From Natronorubrum thiooxidans (lineage in GTDB: Archaea; Halobacteriota; Halobacteria; Halobacteriales; Natrialbaceae): DNA of 64,000 nucleotides. The stretch is from positions 186,001-250,000 of the forward strand of contig NZ_FTNR01000003.1 of NCBI RefSeq assembly GCF_900156475.1, in the 5' to 3' direction. Of the stretch, positions 51,735-58,818 are shown in pieces. A model generated the notes under the pieces. That model saw only the letters and a program-made list of their open reading frames with translations. It searched no databases and was not told the DNA's origin. The position numbers and the translations under genes are program-made. The stretch's first letter is position 1. Each line of letters opens with the position of its first letter.

Positions 51735-52766
51735 TTACTCGTTTGCAGCGGCCGCTTCCGCTTCGTCGTCGCTGGTGTCGTGGTCGACGTCCTCGTCGGA
51801 TCGGGCGGCGACAAGGCCACCGCGTGCCACACTGTAGAGTGGCTCGTTGGCGTGGGTGACGCCGCTGATCGAGAACGGAATGTTCGCATCACTGAGATGG
51901 TCACGGAACAGCGCCTCGAAGCCGCTTGGGCTCGAGGTGCCGCCGGTGACGACGACGGGCACGTCGAGCCCTTCCTCGACGTCTTCCTCGTCGACTTCCT
52001 GGACGATTTTGTCGATGACGTAGTCGAGCAGGTTCTCGTAGTAAATCGAGAGCGCCCCTTCGACGCCGCCGACGTCGGTCGTAAAGTCGAGTTCGAAGTC
52101 GTCTTCTTTGATCGAGGTCACCTTGTCGACTGGTGTCCCGGTTGCACGGGCTGCCTGCTCGTCGACCCAGTCGCCACCGCGGGCGACGGAGAACTTCATG
52201 ACGGGCACGGCGTAGTAGGACAGACAGACGTTCGTCATTCCGGCACCGAAACTGATGCCGAGTCCGGTGAAGTTGTTGTCCGCGAGTTCGCTGTAAATGA
52301 CGGACATCCCTTCGTTGATCGGTTCGGCGTCGTATCCCATGTCATTGAGGAACGACTCGATCGTCTTCTGGTGGTACAACGTCGAGAGATCCGAATCGAT
52401 CGGATCCGCCGGGGAGGAGAAGTAGAGCTTCTCATCCGGATAGGCCGGTTCGCCAACGACCTGTTCGATGATGAGTTTCATCATCGGGATCGCGCTCTTC
52501 TCGTCGTTCGAGAGGATCCCGTGTTTCATCGGGCGGCGGGTTTCCTTATTGAAAATGTTCGCAAAGTTGAGTGCGTCGTCGCCGACGACGTACACCTTGT
52601 CGTCTTTGCGGATGTGCAGCACCTCGCTTCGCGAGAGCATCTGCTCGGCCATATCCGAGTACTCGATCTCTACGAAGGAGTTGCGCTGTTGTACGAACAC
52701 CGTATCGTTGCCATCCTGTTGGGCCGACAGGATGTTCATCGTCCCAACGTCTAGGCCTTTTGCCAT
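51735..52766 (-). CDS. Actin-like cytoskeletal protein, probable salactin family
   Basis: The 343-residue protein has an actin-superfamily ATPase fold. The first phosphate loop is LDVGTMN (residues 5-11), the second [10 protein letters not shown], and the adenosine loop [13 protein letters not shown]. It is shorter than crenactin and unlike Hsp70. The N-terminal sequence [17 protein letters not shown] and overall pattern match my memory of salactin, a dynamically unstable filament in Halobacterium that aids chromosome distribution. A near-perfect TATA box 27 bases upstream indicates a strong leaderless transcript. It follows the DUF7139-like membrane gene by about 100 bases. Family membership is likely, but it is a memory-based match. 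Confidence 0.82.
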
Positions 52767-52790
52767 AGTCGAAAAAGGCCACCGATGGAT

Positions 52791-52796
52791 TATAAA
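52791..52796 (-). promoter_or_regulatory. TATA box of the actin-like gene
   Basis: The minus strand reads TTTATA here, centred 27 bases before the ATG at 52766. This is the clearest leaderless promoter in the window and gives the actin-like gene its own start. Confidence 0.65.
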
Positions 52797-52862
52797 TCTA
52801 TGTGGAATATCCACATCTCAACTAAGAGACGATATGCCTATTTTAACCGCATAAGAAGGGAA

Positions 52863-53768
52863 TTACTCTCGGCGAAGGAGCGAACGGAATCGCTCGAGTA
52901 GCCCCGAGATCGGCGTCGACGAGCCGTCGTCGTCTGCCGTCGCCAGTTCATCGATCCGCTGTTGTTCGCGCAACTCTTTGAGTTTCGCCGTCTGGTCGTC
53001 GACCGTCGACTTCGAGGTGGTCTGTTTCGTCTCGCCGCCTTTCAGTCCCTTGAGGCCGGCGACCTGTGCGTCGACGCCGGTCGATCGGGTCGTCTTCGCC
53101 GCGCCGTCGGTGTTGACCGACACCTCGTCGAAGTCGTCTTCGGAGAAGCTGAGTCGCTTGTGTTCGGTTTTCTCGACGCCACCCCAGGAGAGTTCGACGT
53201 CTTCCATCGCGTCGTCGATATCCTGCTGGACGTCGAACTCTGGCTCGTCGTCTTCGTCCACCTCGTCGTCGGCGTTGGCCTGCGTGACGGCACGCGCCAT
53301 ATCGAGGTAGTGGGCAATCAGTGCCGCACCGGTCGAGGCAGTGAGCCCGGCGAGTCCGATGGCGTAGACGGCGACAACCTCCGCGGTGTAGTCGTTCCCG
53401 TAGCCGTTCCAGTCGTCGGGGTAGGCATACAGGAAGCCAGCAACGGCCGCGAGCGTGACGGCGACGCCGGCGATCGACGCGTACAGGACCCGACGTTCCG
53501 ACGGCAACAGGACCACGATCCCGAGCATCAACAGCGGCAGCGCGACCATGGCGATCCCGTACGCCGGCTCAGCCCACGTGACGTGGGCGATACTACGGGC
53601 CTCGAAGGTGCCGCTCCAGAAAAAGAGCACCAGCGCGACGAGCGCGAGGCCGATCCCGCCGAGGAACAGACCGAATCCGACGTAGACGTCTGTGCGGTCT
53701 TCCGGTTCACCGATGTATCGACGGTAGAGGTCGAAGAGATACCCATCTGCAGGCTGTTCCGCTGACAT
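52863..53768 (-). CDS. Four-helix membrane protein with cytoplasmic acidic tail (DUF7139-like)
   Basis: The 301-residue protein has four transmembrane helices in the first 160 residues (VGFGLFLGGIGLALVALVLFF and following) and then a 140-residue cytoplasmic tail rich in Asp, Glu and Lys. The tail ends in a short predicted coiled coil (STVDDQTAKLKELREQQRIDELA) and a basic C-terminus FRSLLRRE. I recall it as a family found in Halobacteria next to the actin-like gene. No transport motif is visible. Its position directly upstream of the actin-like gene makes a membrane anchor role plausible. Confidence 0.7.
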   Translation of the reverse strand: MSAEQPADGYLFDLYRRYIGEPEDRTDVYVGFGLFLGGIGLALVALVLFFWSGTFEARSIAHVTWAEPAYGIAMVALPLLMLGIVVLLPSERRVLYASIAGVAVTLAAVAGFLYAYPDDWNGYGNDYTAEVVAVYAIGLAGLTASTGAALIAHYLDMARAVTQANADDEVDEDDEPEFDVQQDIDDAMEDVELSWGGVEKTEHKRLSFSEDDFDEVSVNTDGAAKTTRSTGVDAQVAGLKGLKGGETKQTTSKSTVDDQTAKLKELREQQRIDELATADDDGSSTPISGLLERFRSLLRRE

Positions 53769-57099: not shown

Positions 57100-58818
57100 A
57101 TGAGTACCACCGCTGACACGGACGACGTGATCGAGGTCAGTGCTGATGGATTGTCGGTCGAAAAAACGTTCACGGCGGATGAGTTTCCCGTGCCTGCGAT
57201 CCGGTTCGAGATCGACTCGGACCACGACGAGCAGGTCGCATTCCGACTCTCCGAGGAGGTTCCCGAGTCGTTCCCGATGGACAAAGTCGGATTTCACCCT
57301 GACTACCACAGCGACGACTGGACGGCGTTTCAGGACAACCACGTCGAGTTTACCGGCCGGATCGAGCCGGACGAACAACTCGTAACAGTCTATGGCATTC
57401 GTATCGACGACGAGAGCGACGCCGAACCGTTCATGACGGAGCCGGAAATTGTCGAGGTCAGCCCCGACGGCGAGGGTGGCTCCGACGCTGAAACGCTCGA
57501 TGACGACGTCATCGGCAACATCGTCGAAAACGATCGCAACCAGCCCGTCAAGGACATGATCTCCGGTGAGTCGGATACCGTCCCCGGACTCGAGGACGAG
57601 GAGAGCGAGGAAACGGCCGCCGACGATGCTGCTGCTGCGGCTGAAGCTGACGAGCAGACCGACCTCGAGAATGAAGACGGCGGTCTCGACCTCGATCTGG
57701 ATCTCGGCGACGTGGAGACGGAGCCCGAGCCGGTCGACGACGAGGACGAGCCGGAAGACGACACGCCGGACATCGATCTCGGGTTCGGTGAAGACGACAT
57801 TCCGGGTTCCGACGACGAGGATGAATTGAGTGCGACTGGCCTCGAGATCGACCTCGGTGACGACAAAGACGACGAGGACGACCTCGACGAGGAAGACGAG
57901 GAAGACGTCAAACCGGACCTCGACGACGAAGAGACGGACGAGACCGATGACGTCGAATCGGATCTCGACGAGGAAGACGCCGAACCGGACCTCGACGACG
58001 AAGAGACGGACGAGACCGATGACGTCGAATCGGATCTCGACGAGGAAGACGCCGAACCGGATCTCGACGACGAAGAGACGGACGAGACCGATGACGTCGA
58101 CGAGGATGTGCTCGAGGACGACGTCGAGGACGATCCTGAGGACGACACTGAGACTGCTCTCGAAACGGCCGCCGCCGAGTCGACACCGGATGCAGACGAG
58201 TCGACACCGGACGCAGACGACAGCCCGGTGGCTGAGACGGCTGCCGAACCGGCACAGCCAGCGGCCGACACGACGGCTGCGACGACAGCGACGACGTTCA
58301 ATGGCTCCGTTGTCGACCAGCTCGTCACGGAACTCCGTGACGGCGACCTCGACGAGGACGAGCGGGAGGCTCTCCGGTCGGCACTCGATCTCGAGCCGTC
58401 CGGCCCCGAGATCGCGAAAGTCGAGCATCTCCAGTCTCGCATCGAGGAAGTCGCTGCCTACACCGACGCCCTCGAGCAGTTCCTCGAGGACAACGGCACC
58501 GGAAAACAGCTCATCGAGGACGTGCAGGCGGATCTCGAGTCCATCGAAGCCGACCTCGACGAAATGGACGACCGTGTTGGCGGTACCGAGGATCGTCTCG
58601 ATGACGTCGAGGACGAACTCGAGGCTGTCGACGACGACGTCGACGCCCTCGAAGACGACGTGACTGACCTCACGGACGATGTTGACGATCTCGAGGCAGA
58701 CGTCGAAGCCCTCGAAGACGGCCTCGAGGATGTCGAAGACGACATCGAAGACGTGCGCGCGGACGTGACGGACATTCAGGAGTGGCGCGACCAGCTTGGC
58801 TCGATGTTCTCGAACTAA
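57100..58818 (+). CDS. Hyperacidic protein with internal repeats and C-terminal coiled coil
   Basis: The 572-residue protein has three parts. Residues 1-115 form a beta-rich domain (FPVPAIRFEIDSDHDEQVAFRLSEEVPE, split in the protein at natural strands). Residues 115-400 are extremely acidic and low-complexity, with a 24-residue unit (DLDDEETDETDDVESDLDEEDAEP divided over the repeat) present nearly three times. Residues 430-565 form a long coiled coil with a strict 7-residue pattern (DRLDDVEDELEAVDDD type). There is no signal peptide. It may be a scaffold or spacer in the cytoplasm. The next gene starts 57 bases downstream on the same strand. Confidence 0.8.
   Translation: MSTTADTDDVIEVSADGLSVEKTFTADEFPVPAIRFEIDSDHDEQVAFRLSEEVPESFPMDKVGFHPDYHSDDWTAFQDNHVEFTGRIEPDEQLVTVYGIRIDDESDAEPFMTEPEIVEVSPDGEGGSDAETLDDDVIGNIVENDRNQPVKDMISGESDTVPGLEDEESEETAADDAAAAAEADEQTDLENEDGGLDLDLDLGDVETEPEPVDDEDEPEDDTPDIDLGFGEDDIPGSDDEDELSATGLEIDLGDDKDDEDDLDEEDEEDVKPDLDDEETDETDDVESDLDEEDAEPDLDDEETDETDDVESDLDEEDAEPDLDDEETDETDDVDEDVLEDDVEDDPEDDTETALETAAAESTPDADESTPDADDSPVAETAAEPAQPAADTTAATTATTFNGSVVDQLVTELRDGDLDEDEREALRSALDLEPSGPEIAKVEHLQSRIEEVAAYTDALEQFLEDNGTGKQLIEDVQADLESIEADLDEMDDRVGGTEDRLDDVEDELEAVDDDVDALEDDVTDLTDDVDDLEADVEALEDGLEDVEDDIEDVRADVTDIQEWRDQLGSMFSN
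57911..58100 (+). repeat. In-frame 72-bp tandem repeat
   Basis: A 72-bp unit begins at 57911, 57983 and 58055. The first two copies are complete and nearly identical, and the third is cut at 46 bases by a switch to different acidic codons. It encodes a 24-residue acidic block. The near-identity in DNA shows a recent expansion, so copy number may vary between strains. Confidence 0.85.

Follow-up and report, generated by a model that had tools for sequence, protein, structure and literature searches.

An actin-like gene lies in the window (the whole 64,000-nucleotide stretch of Natronorubrum thiooxidans DNA analysed here) beside a gene for a membrane protein with a long tail. The locus raises the question of which filament is encoded, and whether the membrane protein works together with it. 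The two genes are placed as follows:

51735 to 52766, minus strand: volactin gene (actin-like filament protein, 343 amino acids), matching Pfam PF25216
52863 to 53768, minus strand: gene for a DUF7139 four-helix membrane protein with a volactin-type tail (301 amino acids), based on PF23600, an AlphaFold2 model and linkage

The actin-like gene product is volactin. It exceeded the curated cut-off of Pfam PF25216 over its full length (residues 2-322, 462.8 bits, E 9.4e-139, cut-off 35). The preliminary description had labelled the filament salactin-type, and this label was wrong: PF25216 gave 463 bits, whereas the salactin profile NF053533, with its cut-off of 400, gave only 15.6 bits, and the distribution across genomes also follows volactin. 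A profile search of the window's genome returned no salactin match at E 1e-30, and salactin was not found among the listed members of the window's family, in which both volactin and the membrane protein are present. Salactin itself (NCBIfam NF053533) is a dynamically unstable actin of Halobacterium salinarum (PMC10746226). The start codon of the volactin gene was placed at ATG 52766 (MAKGLDVGT...) and not at the GTG upstream of it at 52814, which was without conservation in homologues. Identity to homologues ranged from 77 to 97%, and the best named relatives were the Natronorubrum bangense and N. sulfidifaciens loci (98-99%). A volactin model built from a shallow alignment reached a pLDDT of only 41.5 and was set aside.

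A long open frame with a second, divergent volactin-like domain was observed in about 54 genomes; all belong to the window's family, and the window's own genome is among them. The copy in that genome (L252:8576-11296, G000:C40) encodes a protein of 906 residues that combines the divergent domain with a long stretch of predicted coiled coil and a membrane helix at the C-terminus; this helix was seen in 14 of 17 such loci that were read out, the other three being missed by a simple pattern. The protein shows that a single polypeptide can carry both a volactin-like domain and a membrane segment, but it did not arise by fusing the membrane gene and the volactin gene of the window and serves as an analogy only. 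Within the window, a plus-strand gene at 57100-58818 encodes a very acidic protein of 572 residues that contains DDEETDETDDVESDLDEEDAEPDL-type repeats and ends in a coiled coil; its Pfam matches were to generic coiled coils.

The membrane protein matched DUF7139 (PF23600) over residues 10-158 (E 2.9e-49, 167 bits, cut-off 30). An AlphaFold2 model built from 35 homologues bore out the preliminary count of four helices:

53301 to 53696, minus strand: four-helix membrane module (residues 25-156), from helices in the AlphaFold2 model

These helices were modelled with high confidence at residues 25-52, 60-87, 92-115 and 128-170, with pLDDT above 90 across most of the membrane part, and a short conserved helix (10-18) precedes them. 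Positive charges were read in the N-terminal segment and in the loop joining helices 2 and 3, which suggests that the N- and C-terminal ends would both be cytoplasmic. By model and sequence, the protein thus has the predicted transmembrane segments and cytoplasmic tail of a membrane anchor. No solved structure matched the fold significantly, the best hits being generic four-helix bundles (E 0.063), and family scans found no sensory or catalytic domain.

The tail comprises residues 157-301 (about 145 residues) and was mostly disordered in the model, with helices at lower confidence at 177-189, 233-243, 256-278 and 286-299. Three segments stood out:

53148 to 53240, minus strand: tail motif 1, DIDxAMxDVELSWGGVEK (residues 177-207), mean relative entropy 2.87 bits, predicted helix 177-189
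52956 to 53078, minus strand: tail motif 2, GVDxQVxGLKxLKGGE...STVDDQTxxLxELREQ (residues 231-271), 2.64-2.89 bits, helices 233-243 and 256-278
52866 to 52913, minus strand: basic amphipathic C-terminal helix (residues 286-301), from the predicted helix 286-299 and the charge of the last 12 residues

Among 56 linked homologues, residues 177-207, 231-250 and 251-271 carried 2.6-2.9 bits per column, a degree of conservation matching that of the membrane helices, while the linkers flanking these blocks carried 1.2-1.8. The consensus across the type reads DIDxAM...WGGVxK, then VDxQVxGLxxLxGG...DDQxxxLxELR, then the basic amphipathic C-terminal helix. Before the last 12 residues the net charge of the tail averaged about -19 in homologues, and the last 12 residues were positive in 49 of the 56 (mean charge +2.1), in agreement with the long acidic tail and basic tip reported earlier. 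The short coiled coil given in the same description held in part: a single helix is predicted at 256-278, inside a conserved motif (pLDDT 82 at 261-270), but a more apt description of the tail is three short conserved blocks with variable acidic linkers. The tail profile had no match among PDB sequences.

DUF7139 proteins are commonly present in two or three copies per genome, and one type in the sampled genomes ends in DUF7140, a cysteine-containing domain. A family scan found no DUF7140 in the window's membrane protein, while it was present in a paralogue (G000:C22), and none of the other DUF7139 proteins that were examined had the volactin-linked tail. The tail profile occurred as a single copy in nearly every positive genome despite the two or three DUF7139 genes. 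Given these differing tails and the one copy of the volactin type, DUF7139 seems to be a membrane module of general use that carries varied cytoplasmic parts, the volactin-linked one forming a kind of its own. DUF7139-DUF7140 proteins (L085:3998-4963 in G000:C22, and L067-L084) have a conserved cysteine-rich C-terminal domain and were present in nearly all sampled haloarchaea. The window's genome also encodes a 964-residue protein with a DUF7139 module followed by many DUF1508 repeats (L086:1568-4459, G000:C22).

As described earlier, the membrane gene lies directly upstream of the volactin gene on the same strand, with a gap of 96 bp. The linkage survey proposed with that description was clearly positive. 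Among 60 volactin loci sampled across genera of the class, a DUF7139 gene was upstream on the same strand in 55 (median gap 98 bp), and in named loci the tail gene was on the same strand in 76 of 80; one of the remaining four was a contig starting at volactin. The five non-adjacent loci of the 60 all came from one genus (g27), which we infer to be Halorubrum-like from its resemblance to the named Halorubrum loci (L155, L156) that are likewise without a membrane-gene neighbour. Linkage was near-universal among volactin-bearing genomes, the opposite of an absence in most haloarchaea, and only some 60% of the surveyed genomes contained volactin itself. A volactin pair was also observed on pNG700 of Haloarcula marismortui (RR_RS02760, RR_RS02765).

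Such an arrangement might be ordinary synteny, in which common descent or joint regulation keeps two genes side by side without functional contact, and the locus does in part retain its Dph2, methyltransferase and zinc ribbon neighbours. These were retained in only 28-37 of the 60 loci, against 55 for the membrane gene, and because of this difference and the 76 of 80 named loci the adjacency exceeds chance. The gap between the genes also contains the following element:

52791 to 52796, minus strand: TATA-like element 30 bp before the volactin ATG, at a position that suits a leaderless transcript, part of a conserved core promoter

TTTA/TTAT was found at -35 to -23 of volactin in 59 of 61 loci, compared with 4.9% of background windows. 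Volactin, as read from sequence, has its own conserved core promoter in the intergenic gap, so the adjacency would not be solely a single-promoter or operon effect, and a strict operon is weakened as an explanation. Just upstream of the TATA element is a perfect palindrome, ATGTGGAATATCCACAT (ATGTGGA-ATA-TCCACAT, 52800-52816), which was considered as an operator and set aside, being without conservation at other loci.

Co-occurrence was scored with the tail-only and volactin profiles in the same 292 genomes. Volactin and tail were observed together in 174 genomes and both were missing from 117; one genome had the tail without volactin, and none had intact volactin without the tail. The tail-only genome (G187) is a fragmented assembly of about 180 contigs, and the single volactin-only match, in G060, was an 84-residue remnant with the tail absent. 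Both genes were found in all 75 genomes of the window's own family within this set, and both families were present in the Haloferax volcanii control genome. Positive and negative species were mixed in ten genera. Copy numbers also agreed, with three of each gene in G106 and two of each in G212 and G270, every copy being a linked pair; the G106 pairs were on contigs C3, C4 and C5, and the C4 volactin was split into two frames. It is highly probable that volactin and the membrane protein are functionally interdependent.

The co-occurrence is equally compatible with the membrane protein being a regulator or a cargo, the latter meaning that volactin filaments position or partition the membrane protein without being controlled by it. 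In the passages of the volactin report considered here (PMC10869688), volactin dynamics are described as ParM-like and transport of substrates along filaments is raised as a question, both in keeping with a cargo. We consider a cargo role improbable, however, as the joint absences and matching copy numbers suggest mutual dependence, and a cargo would be expected to occur sometimes without its motor, yet only one genome carried the tail alone.

The Halorubrum-like genus allowed co-occurrence to be viewed apart from adjacency. Of its 52 genomes, 35 contained both genes, one the tail only and 16 neither, and the pair was adjacent in only three. In ten genomes both genes were on one contig at distances from about 70 kb up to over 1 Mb, and in the remaining two-gene genomes they were on different contigs; the membrane helices and the motifs of the tail were retained in the products of the separated genes. 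In an rpoB-region tree comprising 47 species (four were left out as incomplete or with missing or fragmentary genes), there were at least six presence changes and no disagreements between the two genes. Negative species G133, G202, G207 and G298 with G300 were placed among relatives with separated genes, so that a joint absence through one deletion is unlikely there; support for branches around these negatives was moderate for some (44-100). Near the G249 lineage, in which the genes are linked, joint absence may reflect a single event. Since species within a genus are not independent, formal Fisher values overstate certainty and were given little weight. Co-occurrence and joint absence thus outlast gene separation in this genus, by which ordinary synteny is already largely refuted, and we regard it as highly improbable. 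A functional link between volactin and the membrane protein is well supported. Of the earlier proposal of a membrane anchor, nucleator or cargo adaptor, the functional tie therefore stood through linkage and co-occurrence, but the filament concerned is volactin, not salactin.

What the link might consist of can be considered in light of work in H. volcanii, where volactin was described as HVO_2015 (VolA) and which is the only species for which dynamic filaments with tip contact are known. In the parts of that report drawn on here (PMC10869688), volactin filaments bridge the cytoplasm and contact the membrane by their tips only, volactin helps the rod-to-disk change, and its binding factors are called unknown by the authors. 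The same parts of PMC10869688 make no mention of a partner protein or of the adjacent membrane gene, and later papers, in the portions covered, mention volactin and name no partner. A search of open-licence papers turned up nothing on DUF7139 or HVO_2016. According to a 2025 paper, volactin is the only actin homologue identified in H. volcanii (PMC7617734); in our searches, a salactin profile match above the cut-off was observed in the H. volcanii control genome.

The best explanation is a membrane protein dedicated to volactin, which would anchor the filament ends at the membrane or regulate them. The DUF7139 part would sit in the cell membrane with both ends cytoplasmic, and the WGGV and DDQ/ELR blocks of the flexible acidic tail would most likely contact volactin, while the basic amphipathic C-terminal end may contact either the membrane or a further partner. 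Filament ends could then be captured or started at the membrane through this protein, which fits the imaging of tip-only membrane contact in H. volcanii. Because of the predicted topology, the conserved helical tail blocks and the published tip attachment, we think that the membrane protein probably joins the filaments to the membrane physically. Direct binding, a position at the tips and a role in anchoring, nucleation or regulation are predictions, and sequence does not separate anchor, nucleator, regulator and cargo adaptor from one another. A more specific form is plausible but somewhat short of probable: an archaeal actin would here have its first dedicated membrane tip-anchor, a protein with short linear motifs in its disordered tail that capture or nucleate volactin ends, and this protein would be the factor behind tip attachment and disk-shape development.

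The protein might instead be a regulator or sensor and not an anchor, with the four-helix module reading the membrane state and the tail promoting or dissolving filaments. The genomic evidence for such a role is identical to that for an anchor, and a shared DUF7139 module with different cytoplasmic domains resembles a receptor family. Furthermore, the parts of PMC10869688 used here report quick disassembly of volactin filaments before cytokinesis, for which its authors propose regulation by unknown factors. We find this alternative unlikely, since family scans of the protein revealed none of the known sensory or catalytic domains and its conserved tail blocks are short and helical, like binding segments; a regulatory role would also be compatible with simultaneous anchoring. 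For the anchor or regulator of filament ends, the membrane gene offers a genetically tractable candidate in nearly every volactin genome, with directly mutable motifs, and would make membrane attachment of an archaeal actin testable now. Volactin affects the rod-to-disk change and tissue-like development in Haloferax, and a protein binding it was not found in the literature searched.

Among known systems, the closest is VolA (HVO_2015) of H. volcanii, the window actin being a full-length member of the same family, PF25216. Salactin of H. salinarum is likewise a dynamically unstable haloarchaeal actin but belongs to a different family. DUF7139-DUF7140 and DUF7139-DUF1508 proteins have the N-terminal four-helix module in common with the window protein and differ in their tails. 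In bacteria, RodZ and MreC/MreD are membrane partners of MreB, in which a cytoplasmic part contacts the filament and the genes often travel together. The working mode would be similar if the membrane protein binds volactin, whereas family scans gave no sequence relation of the membrane protein to RodZ or MreC/MreD, and topology and tail differ.
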